NCBI RefSeq assembly: GCF_945952055.1
Contig: NZ_CAMFHB010000047.1
Span: forward strand, 1-47,760
Origin: an uncultured Alsobacter sp.
GTDB taxonomy: Bacteria; Pseudomonadota; Alphaproteobacteria; Rhizobiales; Beijerinckiaceae
Length of the DNA: 47,760 nucleotides
Direction: 5' to 3'
Shown: positions 4,609 to 47,154 of the stretch, piece after piece
Layout of the letters: each line of letters begins with the position of its first letter
Position numbering within the stretch: the stretch's first letter is position 1
Position numbers and translations under genes: made by a program
Notes under the pieces: generated by a model
The model's database searches: none
Seen by the model: only the letters and a program-made list of their open reading frames with translations
Told to the model about the DNA's origin: nothing

Positions 4609-7600
4609 TCATGCGGCGTCTCGGACCAGCTTCAGGACCGGCGCGCTGTGGCGCGGCACGGCGGACTGGGGCACGGCAGGGGCACCGACCCAGGCGGAGT
4701 TGGCGGGCAGGCCCTCGCCCTTCATGACCAGCGTCAGCGGACCGAGGCGGGCGAAGTCGCCGACTTGGGTGTCGTAGAGCACCGTGGAGCCGGCGGCGAT
4801 GGTGACGCCCTTGCCCACGTTGACCCGGCCGACCTTCATGACGCGGTCTTCGTAGAGGTGCGTCTGCAGCGAGGACATCTCGTTCATGGCCACGTAGTCG
4901 CCGATGTTCACGCAGTCGAACTCGGTGAGGTCGGTCATGTTGAGCCACACGCCCTTGCCGATCTTCACGCCGAACAGGCGCAGGGCCCAGGGCAGCATCG
5001 GGGTGCCGCGCAGGTGGTCCAGCAGGACCTTGCCGGCGAGGCCCCAGTACATGACGGCGACGGCTTCCGTGCGCAGGGCCCACCACGACCACATGGGCTT
5101 CATGGTGGGAACGTAGCGGCCCATCAGGGTCCACTTCACCGCGGCCACGACGAGGGTCATCACGACCGGGATCACCACCGAGGCAGCCACGAAGAGGAGC
5201 GCGAAGGTGCCCCAGTGCTGCTCGACGACGGAGGGCAGGAACACTTCCACCGCGAGCGTGCCGAAGGTGATGAAGAGCATGGTCGGCAGCGACAGGTTGA
5301 AGGCTTCGAACACGGCGCGGCCGATGCGCGCGGCGCGCGAGGGCTCGAAGGTCCAGGAGGCGGCGATCCCGTCGACCTTCTGGCGGGTCGGCAGCTTGAT
5401 CGGCGGGCTGCCGAACCAGGTGTCGCCCGCGGCCATCTCCTCGTTGGCCGGCGGCTTCGACTTGATGCCGATGAGCACGCCGTCCGGGATGGACGCGCCG
5501 GGAGGAACGACGCCGTCGTTGCCGACGAACACACGCGAGCCCGTCTTCACCGGAGCCAGCGTCATCCAGCCGTTGCGGATGTCCTCGTCGCCCAGCACCA
5601 CCTCGTCGGCGATGAAGCACTTGTCGCCGATCTCGGTAAGGTCGTAGCGGCCCGACAGGTTGGAGGAGATCTCCGAGCCCCTGCCGATCTTGGCCCCCAT
5701 CAGCCGGTACCAGTGACGCATGTAGACGGTGGCGTAGAGCGACGACAGCGTCTCCAGCGTCACCTCCGTGGCGAGCGCCACGATCCACTTGCGGACGTAG
5801 AACCAGCTGTGGACCGAGTAGGTGCCCGCCCGAACCCGCGGCAGGACGGTCCAGCGCACGGCGGCGATCAGGAACACGGTGACCGCGATCATGGCCATGG
5901 CCGTCGGCCAGGCGAGGAGCGGCAGGTAGTTCAAGTAGCTCGTCTCCACGAAGCGGGACACGAGGTCATCGATCCGGTCGAAGAGATAGAAGGCCGGGAA
6001 GATCGGCAGCAGGCTCACCGGCGGCAGAGCGAGCAGCGCGGCGACGTAGGCGGCCGTCTGCAGGGTGCGGCGCGTACGGCTGGCCAGCGGGGGAACCGGA
6101 AGCTCGTCGCGATCGACCTCGCCGACGCGGCGGCCGGGCGAACCGTCCCACATCTCCCAGGCTCCGACGCGGACGTCCTCGCCCACCGAGGTAAGGTCGG
6201 CCAGTTCGGCCCCGCGCCCGATCACGGCGCCCTGGCCGATCACGCAGGAGGTGCCCACATAGGCGCCCGCGCCGATCTCGACCGGCCCGATGACGAGCTC
6301 GTTGCCGATCACGTCCGCCGTGCACAGCACGACCTTGCCGCCGATCGAGGCTCCCGCGCCGATGGTGACGAGGTCGAGGGCGCCCGACTCGATTTCGCAG
6401 ACGATCGCGTCGGCTCCGACCTTGGCGCCGAGCGCCCGCAGGTAGCCCCGCATGACCGGGGTGCCCTGGAACCACTTCATGTGGGTCAGGCTGAGCAGGC
6501 GCTGCACCAGCCACCAGCGGTAGTAGTAGGCGCCCCAGAGCGGATAACGGCCGGGCTTCGTGCGGCCGAGGATGAGCCACTTGCCGGCGATGGCGATGAC
6601 CACCGTGGCGACGTTGATGCCCATGTAGACGCCGAGCAGCATCAGGATGCCGGCGAGCACCGTGGTCTCCTCGCCACCCAGCAGCATGTAGGTGACGAAG
6701 ACGCCCAGCCACTGGGCCGTCATCAGCGCCAGGATGAAGGGCATCGCCGCGGCCTGGGCCAGGCCGCACAGGAACCGGCGGCGCAGCGAAGGCGGCGCGA
6801 ACGAAAGGTCCTGCGGCTCGGCGTGCCCGCCGGCCGGGGCGCGCGCGTCCAGCGCCGCGGCCATGGCGCGCAGCGAGCGACCCGCATAGACGTCCTGAAG
6901 GGTAATGCCCGCGAGCGCCGGGGTCTCGCGAACCGCCGAGATGTAGCGGGCGGCGATCAGCGAGTGGCCGCCGAGATCGGTGAAGAAGTCGGCGTCGAAC
7001 GGCAGGGCCTGGCCCGGAAACACCCGCTGCGCGGCGGCGAGCAGCAGCGCCTCGGTCGGCGTCTGCGGCGCCTCCTGCTCCTCGCCGCGGTCGGCACCGG
7101 TGGCGAGCGGCATGGCCTTCAAGGTCTTGCGGTCGATCTTGCCGGAGACGAGCCGCGGAACGGCCTCGAGCAGCTCGAAGCGGGACGGCACCATGTAGGA
7201 GGGAAGCTGCTCGGCGAGCGACAGGCGGAGCTGCATCCGGTCCACGCCGGACCCAACCTCGGGCACCACGAAGGCCACGAGGCGGTCAATGCCGTCGTCC
7301 TGCCGCAGCACGACCGCCGCCTGCGCGACGCCCGGAAGCGCGTCGAGGCGCACCTCGATTTCGCCCAGCTCGACGCGGAAGCCGCGGATCTTCACCTGGT
7401 CGTCGATACGGCCGTGGAAGACGATGCGCCCGTCGGCATCGAGGCTCACGGCGTCGCCCGAGCGGTACAGGACCGGATCGATTCCGTCCGTCGCGAACGG
7501 GTTGGGAATGAACTTCTCGGCCGTCAGCTCGGGGCGCTTGAGGTAGCCCGAGGCGACGCCGGGGCCACCGATCAGCAGCTCGCCCTGCTGGCCCGGGGCG

Positions 7601-8646
7601 AGCAGCGAGAGGTCCTCGCCCACCACGTAGCAGGTGTAGTTCGGGATCGGACCGCCAATGGTGACGGGCTCGCCGCGCACGACCTCGCAGGCGGTAGCCA
7701 CGACGGTCGCCTCGGTCGGCCCGTAGGTGTTGAAGATGCGCCGGCCGGGCTTCGACCAGCGCTGCACCACGGACGGCTGCAGCGCCTCGCCGCCGAGCAG
7801 GATGAGGCGGAGGCTGGGCACGTCGCGGGTGAACATCGACAGCAGCGTCGGCACCGTGTCGACGGCGGTGATGCCGGCGCCGGCCATGACGTCGGCGAGC
7901 GTCTCGGTCTCGGCCAGCACCTCGGGCGTCGCGACCCACAGGGTCGCGCCGACGAGGTAGGGGATCCAGATCTCTTCCATGGAGAGATCGAACGCCACCG
8001 AGGCGCTCTGGAACATCACGTCGGTCTCGTCGAGCCCGTAGAGGGCATTCCCCGAGCGCAGATAGTGGCAGATGTTGCGATGGCTGATGACGATGCCCTT
8101 GGGCATGCCGGTCGAGCCGGAGGTGTAGATCAGGTAGGCCGGATGATCCGGCGTCAGGCCGAGGCCGCGGGCGTCGACGGCGGCGCCGGCCACCGCGATC
8201 TCGGCCGGGACCAACGCCACGATCCCGTGCGCGGAGGCCCTCGGGGCGAGGTCGGCGGAGGTGAGCAGGCCTTTGGCCGCCGCATCCGTCAGGCAGGTCG
8301 CGATGCGCTCGACCGGGGCGTCGGCGTCGAAGGGCAGCCAGGCGGCGCCCGACTTGGTGATGGCGATCTGGGCCACGAGCAGGTCCGCGCCACGGCGCAT
8401 CCACAGGCCCACCACGTCGCCGGGGCCGATCCCGCGGGCGGAGAGCCCGGCGGCGATGGCGTCGGCCCGCTCGGCCACCTGACGGTAGGTCAGGGTCTCG
8501 CCGGCGCAGACGATGGCGGGATGATCGGGGCGTCGGTGGACGGTCGCGTCGAAGATGTCGGCGAGAACCTCGTCCCGGATCAGATCCGGAAGAGACGGGC
8601 CATGGAGGATGCCCTGTTTGGCCGTCGTGGCGTCAAGCGTGTTCAT
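4609..8646 (-). CDS. Pls/PosA-type membrane NRPS-like synthetase, probably for a basic amino-acid homopolymer
   Basis: A 1345-residue single-chain NRPS-like enzyme in the membrane. Residues about 25-510 are an adenylation domain (YTSGSTGMPKG 174-184, NTYGPTEATV 306-315, YRSGD 394-398, Lys503 in SGKIDRK). Residues 525-600 are a carrier domain (DLGGHSL, Ser562). No condensation or thioesterase domain follows. Instead there are three tandem soluble hexapeptide-rich domains (about 735-840, 975-1080, 1215-1330), each preceded by a pair of membrane segments (about 633-690, 866-930, 1115-1170). This is the layout of epsilon-poly-L-lysine synthetase (about 1300 residues), whose tandem domains form the isopeptide chain. 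Hand alignment to PheA gives the specificity residues D220 L221 E224 D263 L283 G285 T307 V315 V316 K503. The D-x-E-x-(I/L)-G opening resembles lysine/ornithine codes. Start: ATG 8646 with GGAG upstream. Family call is strong; the product is inference. Confidence 0.9.
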   Translation of the reverse strand: MNTLDATTAKQGILHGPSLPDLIRDEVLADIFDATVHRRPDHPAIVCAGETLTYRQVAERADAIAAGLSARGIGPGDVVGLWMRRGADLLVAQIAITKSGAAWLPFDADAPVERIATCLTDAAAKGLLTSADLAPRASAHGIVALVPAEIAVAGAAVDARGLGLTPDHPAYLIYTSGSTGMPKGIVISHRNICHYLRSGNALYGLDETDVMFQSASVAFDLSMEEIWIPYLVGATLWVATPEVLAETETLADVMAGAGITAVDTVPTLLSMFTRDVPSLRLILLGGEALQPSVVQRWSKPGRRIFNTYGPTEATVVATACEVVRGEPVTIGGPIPNYTCYVVGEDLSLLAPGQQGELLIGGPGVASGYLKRPELTAEKFIPNPFATDGIDPVLYRSGDAVSLDADGRIVFHGRIDDQVKIRGFRVELGEIEVRLDALPGVAQAAVVLRQDDGIDRLVAFVVPEVGSGVDRMQLRLSLAEQLPSYMVPSRFELLEAVPRLVSGKIDRKTLKAMPLATGADRGEEQEAPQTPTEALLLAAAQRVFPGQALPFDADFFTDLGGHSLIAARYISAVRETPALAGITLQDVYAGRSLRAMAAALDARAPAGGHAEPQDLSFAPPSLRRRFLCGLAQAAAMPFILALMTAQWLGVFVTYMLLGGEETTVLAGILMLLGVYMGINVATVVIAIAGKWLILGRTKPGRYPLWGAYYYRWWLVQRLLSLTHMKWFQGTPVMRGYLRALGAKVGADAIVCEIESGALDLVTIGAGASIGGKVVLCTADVIGNELVIGPVEIGAGAYVGTSCVIGQGAVIGRGAELADLTSVGEDVRVGAWEMWDGSPGRRVGEVDRDELPVPPLASRTRRTLQTAAYVAALLALPPVSLLPIFPAFYLFDRIDDLVSRFVETSYLNYLPLLAWPTAMAMIAVTVFLIAAVRWTVLPRVRAGTYSVHSWFYVRKWIVALATEVTLETLSSLYATVYMRHWYRLMGAKIGRGSEISSNLSGRYDLTEIGDKCFIADEVVLGDEDIRNGWMTLAPVKTGSRVFVGNDGVVPPGASIPDGVLIGIKSKPPANEEMAAGDTWFGSPPIKLPTRQKVDGIAASWTFEPSRAARIGRAVFEAFNLSLPTMLFITFGTLAVEVFLPSVVEQHWGTFALLFVAASVVIPVVMTLVVAAVKWTLMGRYVPTMKPMWSWWALRTEAVAVMYWGLAGKVLLDHLRGTPMLPWALRLFGVKIGKGVWLNMTDLTEFDCVNIGDYVAMNEMSSLQTHLYEDRVMKVGRVNVGKGVTIAAGSTVLYDTQVGDFARLGPLTLVMKGEGLPANSAWVGAPAVPQSAVPRHSAPVLKLVRDAA

Positions 8647-8810
8647 GCTCAGTCTCCGCCGCGGCCAGGCACGCGACCGACCACGGACCCGCTTGCCGCG
8701 GGTCCCGCGATCCGGCTCAGCGTTCTGGCTGCTCCCCGATCCCCCTTGCCGCCGTTGCAGGGCGGCAGACGCGTCAACTCGCGCCTTGCACAGGTTATCG
8801 GGGTTTCAGA

Positions 8811-8837
8811 CTGAACCGAGAATGAACGATCCTGAAC
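8811..8837 (-). promoter_or_regulatory. Three helically phased TGAAC direct repeats upstream of pls
   Basis: CTGAAC (8811-8816), ATGAAC (8822-8827) and CTGAAC (8832-8837) are spaced 11 and 10 bp. Read toward pls this is GTTCAG-N4-GTTCAT-N5-GTTCAG. The first copy is also half of an 11-bp palindrome, TTCAG-A-CTGAA (8805-8815). Response regulators of the OmpR/PhoB type typically bind 11-bp-spaced direct repeats. It lies 165-191 nt upstream of the pls start, in the 216-nt gap 8647-8862, which otherwise shows nothing I recognise. Binding is inferred. Confidence 0.4.
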
Positions 8838-13991: not shown

Positions 13992-14303
13992 GCGTCCTTC
14001 GACGCGCCGCCGGCGAGACTGCTCAGAGCGCGTGACTCTTTCGGTCGTCCAGCGAGCACCTCCCTCTCCGCGTCATGGCCGGGCTTGGCCCGGCCACCCA
14101 CGACTTGCGGATGGCCCCGGCAAAGTCGTGGATGCCCGGGCCAAGCCCGGGCAGGACGGCGGAAAGGTGGTGGCGCGCTGGAGAAGTCAGATTCAGCAAC
14201 GCATCGGCGGTCGGTTCATGCTCTCAGAATGAGGACCGTTGTCGTTGAAAAACAACGATCTTCCTCATCCTGAGCAAGCCGCGAAGCGGCCGTGTCGCAG
14301 GAC
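13992..14303. repeat. Full composite MITE-like repeat (best preserved double-hairpin copy)
   Basis: Fills nearly all of the 363-nt gap 13965-14327. The ends are inverted: GCGTCCTTCGACGCG at 13992 and CGTGTCGCAGGAC at 14291-14303. Inside are hairpin 1 (14076-14096, arms TGGCCGGGC/GCCCGGCCA), the paired CCACGACTT...AAGTCGTGG stem, and hairpin 2 (14133-14153, arms TGCCCGGGC/GCCCGGGCA). A TTGTCGTT-GAAA-AACAACGA stem-loop and a CCTCATCCTGAGC terminal module follow. No open frame, so non-autonomous. Confidence 0.85.
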
Positions 14304-14327
14304 ACAGAACCGCTCCGACAGCCCCGG

Positions 14328-15281
14328 TCAGAAATCCTTGCGCGGGTCGAAGTCGAGCGTCTCGCTCCAGCGCTCCATCAGCGCCTTCAACTCGTCGCTG
14401 GCCTGAGGCGGCAGGACGATCTCCAGCGTCACGAGCAGGTCGCCCCGGGTGTCGCCCGAGGGCAGGCCCTTGCCGCGCAGGCGCAGCGTGCGGCCGCTCG
14501 ACGAGTTCGCCGGAATCGTGAGTTCCACCGCGCCCTCGAGGGTGGGCGCCCGCACCTTGGCGCCGAGCACGGCCTCGTCGAGCCGGATGGGCAGGCGCAG
14601 GCGGATGTCGTTGCCTTCCACCGCGAAGCGGCGATCGGGGCGCACGTGCACGCTCACCAGCACGTCGCCCGGCGGGCCGCCCGGCGCGGGGCTCGGATGG
14701 CCCTGCCCCTTGAGGCGCACGGTCTGGCCCTCGGCGATGCCGGCCGGGATCTTCACCTCCACGTCGCGGCCGCTCGGCAGCGTGACGCGCAGCGACGTGC
14801 CCTTGACCGCCTCGGCCAGGGTGATGGTCGCCTCGATCTTCACGTCTGCCCCGCCACGCGGCTTGCGCGGCCCGCCGCGGCCGCCCGAGAACAGGTCGGA
14901 GAAGATGTCGGAGGCATCGAACCCGCCAGGACCACCGCGGGCCGAGCGAAAGCCGCCCCCACCCTGGTCGAAGCCAAAGTGGAAGTTCTCGAAGCCGGCC
15001 CCGGCCCCGCCGCCGCGCGGCCCGCCCGCCCCGAAGCCCTCGAAGCCGGTGAAGCGCGGCTTGCCCTCCGCGTCGATCTCGCCGGCGTCGAACTTCTTAC
15101 GCTTGTCGGCATCGCCCAGGATCTCGTAGGCGTTGTTGATCTCGGCGAACGTGTCGCGCGCCTTCGGATCGGTGGGGTTGCGGTCGGGATGGTGGGCTTT
15201 GGCCAGGCGGCGGAACGCCTTCTTGATGTCGGCTTCCGTCGCCGAGCGTCCGACACCGAGGACGACATACGGATCGCGCAT
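14328..15281 (-). CDS. DnaJ-like co-chaperone (CbpA type)
   Basis: 317 residues. A J domain (1-65) carries the HPD motif (KAHHPDRNP), a Gly/Phe-rich linker follows (about 75-130), and then the two C-terminal substrate-binding beta domains. There is no CxxCxGxG zinc finger, so it is a CbpA-type class II partner of DnaK rather than DnaJ itself. The frame is open to 15329; MRDPYVVLGV at ATG 15281 is the obvious start. A perfect palindrome lies 35 nt upstream. It shares strand and neighbourhood with the small lipoprotein at 15425-15910, a common arrangement next to pdxH in Rhizobiales. Confidence 0.93.
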   Translation of the reverse strand: MRDPYVVLGVGRSATEADIKKAFRRLAKAHHPDRNPTDPKARDTFAEINNAYEILGDADKRKKFDAGEIDAEGKPRFTGFEGFGAGGPRGGGAGAGFENFHFGFDQGGGGFRSARGGPGGFDASDIFSDLFSGGRGGPRKPRGGADVKIEATITLAEAVKGTSLRVTLPSGRDVEVKIPAGIAEGQTVRLKGQGHPSPAPGGPPGDVLVSVHVRPDRRFAVEGNDIRLRLPIRLDEAVLGAKVRAPTLEGAVELTIPANSSSGRTLRLRGKGLPSGDTRGDLLVTLEIVLPPQASDELKALMERWSETLDFDPRKDF

Positions 15282-15315
15282 CGATTCACACCTCTTCTGC
15301 CGCAGGCAGTGTGCC

Positions 15316-15336
15316 ATGGCGCCCAGCATGCGCCAT
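15316..15336 (-). promoter_or_regulatory. Perfect inverted repeat upstream of the DnaJ-like gene
   Basis: ATGGCGC-N7-GCGCCAT, 35-55 nt upstream of the ATG at 15281 in the 143-nt gap to the lipoprotein gene. It is not the CIRCE element (TTAGCACTC-N9-GAGTGCTAA). It could be an operator, or the stem of a weak terminator for the lipoprotein gene; no T-run follows. Confidence 0.3.
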
Positions 15337-15424
15337 CGTCAGACGAGACCCCGCGGCCTTCTGTCGGACACGCATATGGGGAGCCTGTTGCCGAACCGCA
15401 ACGGTGTGTCGACGAAGCCGCGCT

Positions 15425-15910
15425 TCAGATGCGGCGCGGCGGCTCGTCCTTGATCGACTTGACCTTGTGGAGCGACCAGGAGCCCGCACCCGCCCGGCAG
15501 GCGACGCCGCGCAGGTCGTCCGGCTTCTGCTGGACGACGATGGCGGCGCGGAACGAGCGGCACACCTGGTCGTCGCGGACATAGGCGTCGCCCTCGGCCA
15601 GGAAGCTGCCCTGGTTGCCGGTGGAGGGATTGGACCAGCGCACGGCGCCCTTGCGCACGGGATCGAGCGCCTGGTCGAGCGCTCCGCCGGCGATGACGAG
15701 ATCCTCGCCCGTCGCGGCCTCGGACAGGACGACGGTCTGGACGATCGACCCGGTCGTCAGTTCGGGTTCGGAGAAGGGTCCGAGAGGCAGATTGATGGAG
15801 CATCCCGCCGACAGGACCCCGGCGGCAAGCACCGCGCCGGCCGCAGCGCCGATCCGCAAACCACGACCGGACGACACCGGACGCCTTCCTTCAGCAGCGG
15901 CTTGTCCCAT
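15425..15910 (-). CDS. RT0821/Lpp0805-like surface lipoprotein
   Basis: 161 residues from ATG 15910. A basic N-terminus and a hydrophobic segment end in the lipobox LSAGC, so the mature protein is a lipoprotein. The C-terminal domain has VRWSNPSTGNQGSF, the pattern of the 16-kDa surface antigen family, and CRSFRAAI...GVACRAGAGSW with paired cysteines. Function is unknown in the family. An upstream ATG at 15973 would add 21 residues before the signal region and looks less likely. It is divergent from pdxH. Confidence 0.75.
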   Translation of the reverse strand: MGQAAAEGRRPVSSGRGLRIGAAAGAVLAAGVLSAGCSINLPLGPFSEPELTTGSIVQTVVLSEAATGEDLVIAGGALDQALDPVRKGAVRWSNPSTGNQGSFLAEGDAYVRDDQVCRSFRAAIVVQQKPDDLRGVACRAGAGSWSLHKVKSIKDEPPRRI

Positions 15911-42618: not shown

Positions 42619-43935
42619 TCAGAAATCGCGCTCGAAGCGGATGCGGCCGGCCCAGTTGTCGCGCTCGTCGAAAGCGGCGATCGGGAGCAGGTTGCGCGGG
42701 GTCTGGGTGAGCTTCGAGTAGGTGACCTCGGCGCCGATATCGAGGTTCTTCACCGGCGACCAGATCAGGTTGGTGCCGGCCGAGAAGGCGGCGGTGTCGT
42801 AGAGCGGGCCCCAGTGGTCGAGACGGCCATAGGCGGCGAAGACGCCCTGGCGGACCGTGGGGGTCCAGTAGTGCAGCAGGCCGCCGGTCACCGACCAGGA
42901 CTTGGTGGTGTGGCCATTGCCGTTCACGTCGTAGATGACGTCGGCGGTCGCCGGGGTCAGCGTGCCGGCGCCGGTCGCGGCCCAGCCGGTGTAGCTGTTG
43001 GCGCCGTTGGCGTAGGCTGCCTGCAGGAAGAGCGCGTCGCCCGGGGCGAGCATCGGCAGGTTGACCTTCAGGCCGCCCTGGATGGCATAGCCGTATTCGG
43101 TGTCGCCGATCGTGTTGCCGAGGCCGAACACGTTGTTGACGTTGCTGCCGAGGCCGACGCGGCTCTGGTGCACGGCGGCCGACAGAGCGGCCTGGCCCCA
43201 GGCGGCGGTGTAGTCGAGGCGGCCGACGATGTCGGGCATCACGTGCCCGCCGTAGGTCGGGTTGCCGATGATCGTGAAGGCACCGTTGGCGCGGGCGAGC
43301 GCGTTGGCCCGGCGCTCCGTGCCGTCCTCGATGGCGATCGTGGCCGAGAAGTCGCCGAAGGTCGCCGTGTAGGCCAGCGTGTTGATGGAGCTGTAGTCAG
43401 CGCCGCGGCCCAGGTTGCCGCCGCCCTCGAACGAGATGCCGCCGAAGGGCGCGAACTCGAAGAAGGAGGTCGCCACGCGGCCGGCCGTGATGCCGGCGAA
43501 CTGGATGTAGGCCCAGTCGAGGACGACGTCGGCGTTGGTGGTGCCGGCACCGTTGCCGATGTTGGCGTTGTTCACGTTGTTGGCGTTGAAGCCGCGGCCG
43601 GAGTCGCGCGTCACGTAGATGCGGGTCGAGGCGCGCAGCGGGCCGTAGCCGGTGTTGTTGATCGCGTCGAGCGTGAAGTAGCCGCGGCCACGGAAGGACG
43701 TCGTGTTCGCGTCACGCGTGAACGGCTGGTTGTAGTAGTACTCGGCGCGGACACGACCGCCGACCTTCAGGCAGGTATCGGTGCCGGGAACCACGAAACC
43801 GGTGACTTCGCCGATGGAGCAGATCCGGACGTACTCAACCGGGGCGGCCTTCTTGGAAGGCAGGTCCGCTGCGGAGGCGACGCCGACGATGGACAGGGCG
43901 GCAGCCGAGCCGAGGAAGATCGAGGAAAGGCGCAT
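42619..43935 (-). CDS. Porin, Porin_2 (Omp2b/RopA) family, copy 1
   Basis: Outer-membrane trimeric general-diffusion porin. 438 residues. The signal peptide ends VASA-ADLPSKKA, the N-terminal hallmark of rhizobial porins; two cysteines follow (VRIC...TDTCLKVGGRVRAEY, 15 residues between) that may pair. Then alternating beta strands lead to a C-terminal Phe (RIRFERDF) for outer-membrane assembly. RRANALARANG, VMPDIVGRLDYTAAWGQAA and GGLLHYWTPTVRQGVFAAYG are shared with the two copies that follow upstream. It has its own strong terminator and a candidate operator 84 nt upstream. GGAG lies close to the start. Confidence 0.95.
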   Translation of the reverse strand: MRLSSIFLGSAAALSIVGVASAADLPSKKAAPVEYVRICSIGEVTGFVVPGTDTCLKVGGRVRAEYYYNQPFTRDANTTSFRGRGYFTLDAINNTGYGPLRASTRIYVTRDSGRGFNANNVNNANIGNGAGTTNADVVLDWAYIQFAGITAGRVATSFFEFAPFGGISFEGGGNLGRGADYSSINTLAYTATFGDFSATIAIEDGTERRANALARANGAFTIIGNPTYGGHVMPDIVGRLDYTAAWGQAALSAAVHQSRVGLGSNVNNVFGLGNTIGDTEYGYAIQGGLKVNLPMLAPGDALFLQAAYANGANSYTGWAATGAGTLTPATADVIYDVNGNGHTTKSWSVTGGLLHYWTPTVRQGVFAAYGRLDHWGPLYDTAAFSAGTNLIWSPVKNLDIGAEVTYSKLTQTPRNLLPIAAFDERDNWAGRIRFERDF

Positions 43936-45789: not shown

Positions 45790-47154
45790 TCAGAAATCGC
45801 GCTGGAAGCGAATGCGGCTAAAGTAGTTGTCGCGAGATGAACCAACGGCCAGCGGAAGAGCCGAGTTCGGCGTGTCCGTGAGCTTCTGGTACCCAACTTC
45901 GGCGCCGATATCCAAGCCCTTCACCGGCGACCAATACACGTTCGTGCCGACGGTCAAAGCCGCTGCGTCGTACAGTTTGCCGTACTGGTCAAGCTTACCG
46001 TAGCCGACGAACACGCCCTGGCGGACCGTGGGCGTCCAGTAGTGCAGCAGGCCGCCGACCACCGAATAGGACTTCGACGTTTTCGCATTGCCCGCCGGAT
46101 CGTAGATCACGTCAGCCGAGGTGATCGTGCTGAACGTACCGACCCCCGTGGTGCTCCAGCCAGTGTAGCTGTTGGCGCCATCGGCGTACGCCGCCTGAAG
46201 GAACAGAGCATCACCAGCAGCGATCATCGGGAGGTTGATCTTCAAGCCACCCTGGATCGCGAAGCCGTATACCGTGTCACCGACGGCGCCATTGGTGTAG
46301 CTGTTGCCGAAACCTTCAGTCACGGCGCCAGTGGCAGCAGTCATCGTGCGGGTCTTGGTACCAGGCGAACCGACGCGAGTCTGGTGGATGGCGCCGGTCA
46401 GCGCGGCCTGCCCCCAAGTGCCGGTATAATCGAGGCGCCCCACGACGTCCGGCATGGAATGGCCACCGTAGGTCGGAGCCTTCTCACCGGTAAGCAGCTT
46501 GAAGTCGGCACCGGCATTGGCAATGCCAACGCGGCGCTCCGTGCCGTCTTCGATCGCGAGCGTGGCCGTGAACCCACCGCCGAACTGAGCCGTATAGGCC
46601 AGGACGTTGTTCGCGCCGTAGTCAGAGCCGCGGCCGAGAGCATTGCCGCCAACCATCGACACGCCGCCGAGCGGGGCGAATTCGAAGAAGGAGACGGGGA
46701 GGCGGCCAGCAGTAATTCCGGCGAACTGGATGTAAGCCCAATCGAGCGTGATGTTGGCGTCAGTGCCGCTCGGAAGAGTCGTGCCGCCAGCAGCGCCCGA
46801 ACCGCCCGTCACACGACCAGAGTCACGCGTGACAAAGATTCCGGTCGTCGCGCGCAGCGGACCCCAGTCGGTCGGGGTGTAACTGTCAAGGCGGACGTAG
46901 CCGCGAGCGCGGGTCGAGGTCGTGTTGGAATCGCGCGAGAATGGCTGGTTATAGTAGTAGTCCGCACGGACGCGGCCATACACGCGCAGGCAGGTGTCGG
47001 AGCCCGGGACGTAGAAGAACCCGGCGCCGAACTGCGAGCAGACGCGCACGTACTCGACAGGAGCCGCCTTCTTCGACGGCAGGTCGGCAGCGAAGCCGAC
47101 GGTCCCCATGGCGAGCAGGGCCGCCGAGGACAAAAGGGGCGTGGTGAAACGCAT
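45790..47154 (-). CDS. Porin, Porin_2 (Omp2b/RopA) family, copy 3
   Basis: 454 residues. Signal peptide LLSSAALLAMGTVGFA followed by ADLPSKKAAPVEYVRVC, cysteine pair (VRVC...SDTCLRVYGRVRADYYY), FFEFAPLGGVSMVGGN, MPDVVGRLDYTGTWGQAALTGAIHQTRVG, GLLHYWTPTVRQGVFVGYG, C-terminal RIRFQRDF. Codon third positions look less GC-rich than in neighbouring genes, which may reflect high expression or divergence. AGGAG lies 11 nt upstream of ATG 47154. A long leader (AT-rich zone at about 47310-47370) suggests the promoter is 150-200 nt upstream. It is preceded by repeats. Confidence 0.95.
   Translation of the reverse strand: MRFTTPLLSSAALLAMGTVGFAADLPSKKAAPVEYVRVCSQFGAGFFYVPGSDTCLRVYGRVRADYYYNQPFSRDSNTTSTRARGYVRLDSYTPTDWGPLRATTGIFVTRDSGRVTGGSGAAGGTTLPSGTDANITLDWAYIQFAGITAGRLPVSFFEFAPLGGVSMVGGNALGRGSDYGANNVLAYTAQFGGGFTATLAIEDGTERRVGIANAGADFKLLTGEKAPTYGGHSMPDVVGRLDYTGTWGQAALTGAIHQTRVGSPGTKTRTMTAATGAVTEGFGNSYTNGAVGDTVYGFAIQGGLKINLPMIAAGDALFLQAAYADGANSYTGWSTTGVGTFSTITSADVIYDPAGNAKTSKSYSVVGGLLHYWTPTVRQGVFVGYGKLDQYGKLYDAAALTVGTNVYWSPVKGLDIGAEVGYQKLTDTPNSALPLAVGSSRDNYFSRIRFQRDF

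Follow-up and report, generated by a model that had tools for sequence, protein, structure and literature searches.

A Pls/PosA-family synthetase of the DLED code class in an uncultured Alsobacter: specificity code, place in the Beijerinckiaceae and candidate polymerisation site

The stretch of DNA analysed here (the window, 47,760 nucleotides from an uncultured Alsobacter sp.) carries at 4609..8646, on the minus strand, a gene for a protein of 1345 residues, which probably is, by analogy with characterised relatives, an iterative Pls/PosA-family synthetase with a single module, bound to the membrane and producing a cationic isopeptide homopolymer. The gene belongs to a known enzyme family and to a class that has already been noticed; neither this class, referred to here as DLED after the first four letters of its ten-letter specificity code, nor the exact code is new, as both are already in print. 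DLEDIGTV(T/V/I)K has been listed as a unique signature found in Archaea, Rhizobia, Methylobacterium and others (PMC10522769), and a Bosea genome note reported a non-alpha poly-amino acid (NAPAA) locus with the code DLedLgTVvK in that genome and in seven other complete Bosea genomes (PMC10508160); the code of these loci is identical to that of the window gene, which differs only by genome. NAPAA loci have also been described for Methylobacterium, where almost every genome has one, and for Methylorubrum extorquens (PMC8561711, PMC10353431). The substrate of the DLED enzymes is reported neither in PMC10508160 nor in PMC10522769. What is new here is only the placing of the sole conserved histidine, and of 11 of 16 conserved polar positions, in the last third of the membrane half of the enzyme.

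The open reading frame, which has an ATG start, is a real gene, and all coordinates given for its parts are on the minus strand. In an NCBI profile search, the Pls/PosA model TIGR02353 matched residues 630-1324 with 620.9 bits (2.8e-186; cut-off 423.1), and the adenylation-domain model TIGR01733 scored 406.9 bits, also above its cut-off. Pfam (E <= 0.001) returned four families, AMP-binding (residues 32-369), AMP-binding_C (429-503), PP-binding (544-599) and Hexapep, but neither a condensation nor a thioesterase family. One adenylation domain (approximately residues 24-510; 7117..8577) and one carrier domain (approximately residues 530-601; 6844..7059), with Ser562 in the motif GGHS at 559, hence precede the membrane terminal domain (residues 605-1325; 4672..6834). 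AlphaFold models of both halves had high confidence, with a mean predicted local distance difference test (pLDDT) score of 91.6 for the half that contains the adenylation domain and, for the C-terminal half (residues 605-1345), a mean pLDDT of 92.1 and a predicted template modelling (TM) score of 0.91. The latter model shows long helix pairs at approximately 621-692, 857-934 and 1104-1174, each followed by the strands of a beta-helix, described as left-handed; a simple hydropathy scan placed membrane stretches at 624-694, 862-938 and 1118-1176, with a weak extra one at 139-159 within the adenylation domain, so that the six membrane helices in three pairs and the three soluble segments typical of the family are predicted here as well. 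The sequence-only reading had described this build, including the lack of condensation and thioesterase domains and an alphaproteobacterial source, and had named a profile search of the terminal domain and a structure prediction of the C-terminal half as checks; the results of both agree with it, and the source is supported. The ratio of nonsynonymous to synonymous substitution rates (dN/dS) was 0.077-0.174 in nine pairs of close relatives, which argues that the gene is more than a chance frame. An open frame of 1388 codons at 4648-8814 on the plus strand mirrors the synthetase gene and probably results from G+C-rich codon usage.

Among characterised enzymes, the delta-poly-L-ornithine synthetase PosA of Acinetobacter baumannii has the same domain order as the window gene (PMC10522769; structures 8g95-8g98) and represents the closest characterised class in our trees. 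The model of the window's adenylation domain matched the PosA structures 8g95-8g98, which are empty, L-ornithine-, D-ornithine- and lysine-bound, with a target TM score of 0.95-0.96 and 46-47% identity. Synthetases of diaminopropionate (PDAP) and diaminobutyrate (PDAB) polymers also share family and architecture (PMC4668381, PMC10522769), as does Pls, the epsilon-poly-L-lysine synthetase of Streptomyces albulus (7wew). The adenylation domain of Pls gave a match of 263 bits, below the 402.8 bits for PosA.

For comparison we used the best 80 of at least 594 relatives (named loci), 39 stretches from the family, which we take to be the Beijerinckiaceae in the GTDB sense, and 28 from the order or class; the family, order and class samples were searched by enzyme family and not by code. 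The ten code positions, in GrsA numbering, were placed by hand via alignment columns and read D-L-E-D-L-G-T-V-V-K (residues 220, 221, 224, 263, 283, 285, 307, 315, 316 and 503; 7138..7989 for residues 220-503), as the sequence-only reading had them; as a check of this placing, the same columns reproduce DMEHNGTVSK, as published for PosA, for 23 of the 28 sequences with a DMEH code. Asp at position 1 (D220) and Glu at position 3 (E224), a trait of the family, are present in all 148 aligned sequences except L173 (masked) and L183 (short frame), while Gly at position 6 is missing in these two and in ten others with Phe, DGES or DYEC codes. Because these three residues are common to other cationic-polymer synthetases, including sequences with Phe at position 2 and Gly at position 6, they cannot single out lysine or ornithine and say at most that the substrate is basic. 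The classes separate at positions 2, 4 and 9, which are L, D and V in the DLED sequences (75/75), A, S and I/V in the lysine-type DAES sequences (22/22), M, H and S/T in the PosA-type DMEH sequences (28/28) and F, variable and T/S in the Phe sequences (17/17). With Leu221, the window gene has neither the Ala at position 2 of the lysine class, which also has Ser where the window has Asp at position 4, nor the Phe that the published rule assigns to PDAP/PDAB synthetases; it shares D1 and E3 with PosA and differs from its code at positions 2, 4, 5 and 9, a difference that is compatible with ornithine use. At positions 2, 4 and 9 it thus fits none of the lysine, ornithine and Phe classes, and by these residues DLED is a class of its own. 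An earlier designation of the code as 'lysine/ornithine-type' therefore lacks support in that form, and the earlier argument from D1, E3 and G6 holds for a basic pocket and not for a lysine or ornithine type; the ornithine code D-M-E-N-L-G cited with it also disagrees with the DMEHNG of the ornithine polymerase PosA (PMC10522769). Codes outside the classes were seen in L183 and in L197 (DYECISLVSK), and three order-level loci (L190, L191 and L195) have DGESVSVVNK, one letter off the poly-beta-lysine code DGESISVVNK (PMC10522769).

The most likely monomer is L-ornithine, a choice that we hold tentatively and at slightly less than even probability; lysine, 2,4-diaminobutyrate or a monomer new to such polymers share the remaining probability. 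The PosA authors argue that chain length is limited by position 2, with Ala for lysine, Met for ornithine and Phe for shorter acids; by the published rule, sequences with Phe at position 2 are assigned to diaminopropionate or diaminobutyrate (PMC10522769). Leu is near Met in size and hence fits the ornithine side. Several observations count against the main reading. The window's 34-residue pocket signature had on average 21.8 residues identical to the lysine class and 22.3 to the PosA class, a near tie that does not settle the monomer. Literature searches found no product of any DLED enzyme. Position 9 is Val instead of the Ser that binds the delta-amine in PosA (PMC10522769), and position 4 is Asp, at a place where a Ser of the lysine enzyme contacts the substrate (PMC11253843; the position match was made here); both point away from a plain PosA pocket, and it is because position 2 conflicts with positions 4 and 9 that ornithine is not rated higher.

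That the enzyme is an epsilon-poly-L-lysine synthetase seems quite unlikely: position 4 is polar and position 9 aliphatic as in the DAES class, to which the pocket signature is nearly as close as to PosA, but Ala at position 2 in 22/22 DAES sequences stands against Leu in 75/75 DLED sequences, and lysine use by PosA increased nearly tenfold on replacement of the bulky position-2 residue (PMC10522769); a bulky residue there should therefore hinder lysine. In addition, DLED groups with PosA and not with DAES in trees of both the C-terminal half and the adenylation domain. Somewhat unlikely, but better placed, is an enzyme of the same type with a monomer that is none of lysine, ornithine, diaminobutyrate and diaminopropionate, i.e., a further basic amino acid with an extra group held by Asp263. 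Leu221, Asp263 and Val316 occur together in 75/75 DLED sequences and in no other class seen, the PosA paper calls the signature unique and its substrate unknown, and arginine was the preferred substrate of a Bdellovibrionales homologue that carries another code (PMC10522769); by contrast, neighbour clustering revealed no recurrent gene for an unusual amino acid beside DLED copies, and the acidic pair could merely hold one ammonium. With regard to specificity, the code positions agree with a basic substrate, with neither the lysine nor the ornithine class matched.

The trees that bear on these alternatives were built by a quick method and have some long branches. With the C-terminal half as input and L143 left out, 67/67 DLED sequences fell on one side of a branch with a Shimodaira-Hasegawa-like approximate likelihood ratio test (SH-aLRT) value of 100, beside 23 DMEH sequences (99). 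When 28 further sequences were added, the DLED class needed two changes; without the masked L173 (L143 and others too short were also left out), it needed one, with 75/75 sequences on one branch next to PosA (support 100). The DMEH class needed two changes in the C-terminal-half tree and hence is not one clade there. In an adenylation-domain tree without pocket columns, which like the dN/dS step leaves out L173 and L183, DLED joined DMEH and needed two changes. The Phe sequences were placed elsewhere in both trees, apart from DLED.

Pls/PosA synthetases are widespread in the Beijerinckiaceae. Among 298 Beijerinckiaceae genomes, 211 had a match at E <= 1e-50 and 205 a match over the cut-off, covering 34 of 43 genera, as compared to 37 of 249 genomes in the order sample (nine of them from Beijerinckiaceae) and 8 of 240 in the class sample (three from Beijerinckiaceae). 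The sequence-only reading had suggested that the strain makes a cationic polymer; the enzyme type fits this, but the capacity would not be peculiar to the strain, given 205/298 genomes over the cut-off. Codes of 40 family proteins, window included, were DLED in 37, Phe-type in two and that of PosA in one; the 28 copies outside the family comprised 8 DLED, 9 Phe, 3 DAES, 3 DGES, 2 DMEH and 3 other or unreadable codes. In the window, the neighbours are aroC, a histidine phosphatase gene, fabI, a ribB/GTP-cyclohydrolase gene and a gene with a histone-deacetylase fold, and no hydrolase or exporter gene adjoins the synthetase, which supports an earlier description of it as a stand-alone gene. The fetched stretch contained aroC or fabI at 32 of 36 family DLED loci (window apart; both in 19) and at 0/3 family copies with other codes, a count of presence and not of adjacency, and some stretches end at contig ends; with these numbers, a newly acquired cluster was rejected. 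Family-wide presence, the kept place near fabI and aroC and the one-branch DLED tree together indicate that the synthetase is an old, vertically kept gene. In 12 of 13 searched genomes without the synthetase aroC was found, giving 13 loci, and at four of these fabI (or fabI and the phosphatase gene) runs into aroC with approximately 63-113 bases between matches, i.e., an empty site. Absence from the congener G003 was not counted as a true loss, because aroC was also not found there (assembly 83% complete); the synthetase region is probably missing from that assembly.

A few loci depart from this pattern. In L054 and L055, congeners of the window, the synthetase groups with L079 and not with that of the window, while their aroC plus fabI come closest, by path, to those of the window, though the tree is unresolved here; a replacement in place is possible. 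In genus g29, L076 (G181) has the exact PosA code away from fabI and aroC, and its congener L203 (G031) has an empty fabI-phosphatase-aroC site. L107 has a gene with an HMW1C N-terminal match (14003-15814) between synthetase and aroC, and the Phe-class copy L074 (4940-11008) has a frame of 2022 residues, far longer than others.

Neighbour clustering across loci of all classes found fabI, aroC, the phosphatase gene, dnaJ, ribB and the deacetylase-fold gene as recurrent neighbours; beside DLED copies, neither a hydrolase gene nor one for monomer synthesis recurred. In Aquabacter cavernae (L115, DLED; 14009-15610), an amino-acid permease gene and then a phosphopantetheinyl transferase gene lie behind the synthetase on the same strand; the permease, which has a relative near L181, might transport the monomer or the product. 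An aminotransferase cluster takes in three DLED loci, where it lies kilobases from the synthetase. At five order-level loci with DFEC.S.V.K or DFEPISAVSK codes (L182, L184, L185, L186 and L193), a class-III aminotransferase gene (identified by Pfam for L184 and by sequence cluster for the others) directly adjoins the synthetase, which would suit diaminobutyrate supply. Elsewhere in the window, two Porin_2 genes (42619-43935 and 45790-47154) lie on the same strand approximately 1.9 kb apart.

From characterised relatives, we propose that the adenylation domain would adenylate one diamino acid, with D220 holding the alpha-amine and E224 the side-chain amine, and that the activated amino acid would be loaded onto the carrier at Ser562, primed by a phosphopantetheinyl transferase encoded elsewhere; the terminal domain would then let the side-chain amine of the acceptor attack the thioester repeatedly. 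The window's own genome has two matches to the transferase family, one of which, in L202, we take to be AcpS by sequence and neighbours. A transferase gene was found within 500 bases at 9 of the 18 DLED loci where the synthetase is not near fabI/aroC, at 15/28 DMEH, 6/22 DAES and 3/23 other loci, and at 1/51 loci with the synthetase near fabI/aroC (window and duplicates L095, L096, L100, L118 and L121 left out); ten of these neighbour genes served to build the profile and hence necessarily match it, and nine of the ten fall within the 500-base count. The single case among 51 suggests that the fixed-place copy relies on a transferase elsewhere.

Polymerisation itself may, in our own proposal, occur at one site around the third beta-helix, with the second helping. 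In fold searches, each beta-helix resembled hexapeptide acyltransferases; the matches listed cover a single beta-helix only, which leaves room for a longer match. By this resemblance, the C-terminal half has the look of a trimer built from a single chain. When the three repeats (C1 to C3) of 24 taxa were aligned, several Gly and Pro were common to all, while Glu1242, Gln1261, His1263, Lys1271, Lys1309 and Glu1311 were typical of the third only. In the membrane half, sixteen polar positions reach 95% conservation or more among 140 sequences (eight left out), with two in C1 (Q631, R710), three in C2 (R981, D1014, N1043) and eleven in the last third, which also holds the only conserved histidine; the codons of the conserved set from E1242 to E1311, including His1263, span 4712..4923. 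This distribution leads us to a single active site, perhaps shared with C2, which the 'three condensation domains' may have in common; the conserved positions in C1 and C2 count against a site in C3 alone. From their own model, the PosA authors proposed that the three regions form one domain (PMC10522769). It is very unlikely that no free polymer is made and that basic residues are instead added to a membrane or cell-surface acceptor, akin to D-alanylation. The likeness to acyltransferases, the location in the membrane, scores of the adenylation domain against DltA models (below their cut-offs) and a lasting conservation that would suit a surface role speak for such an acceptor; free polymer is what PosA, of the class next to DLED, produces in vitro (PMC10522769), and the C3 residues show similar conservation in all code classes (L137, L139, L143, L158 and L159 left out), both of which speak against it.

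Few organisms have yielded characterised cationic isopeptide polymers, and these are mostly considered for their antimicrobial action. The synthetase described here belongs to a class without a measured monomer that a large family of bacteria from soil, from plants and with methylotrophic growth has retained. For a gene that has stayed in place under purifying selection, a constant role is more fitting than that of an occasional antibiotic, although the gene can be absent, as the empty sites show. Taken jointly, it is rather unlikely that most Beijerinckiaceae, Methylobacterium and Bosea included, make a cationic homopolymer of a monomer new to natural isopeptide polymers, through an ancestral enzyme near fabI and aroC in a standing cell-envelope role, and also that, throughout the Pls/PosA family, a single site around the third beta-helix of a degenerate pseudo-trimer serves polymerisation. 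A candidate active site for the polymerisation step emerges from the conserved residues, and the DLED monomer, if found, would supply an entry that the code table of these enzymes now lacks.

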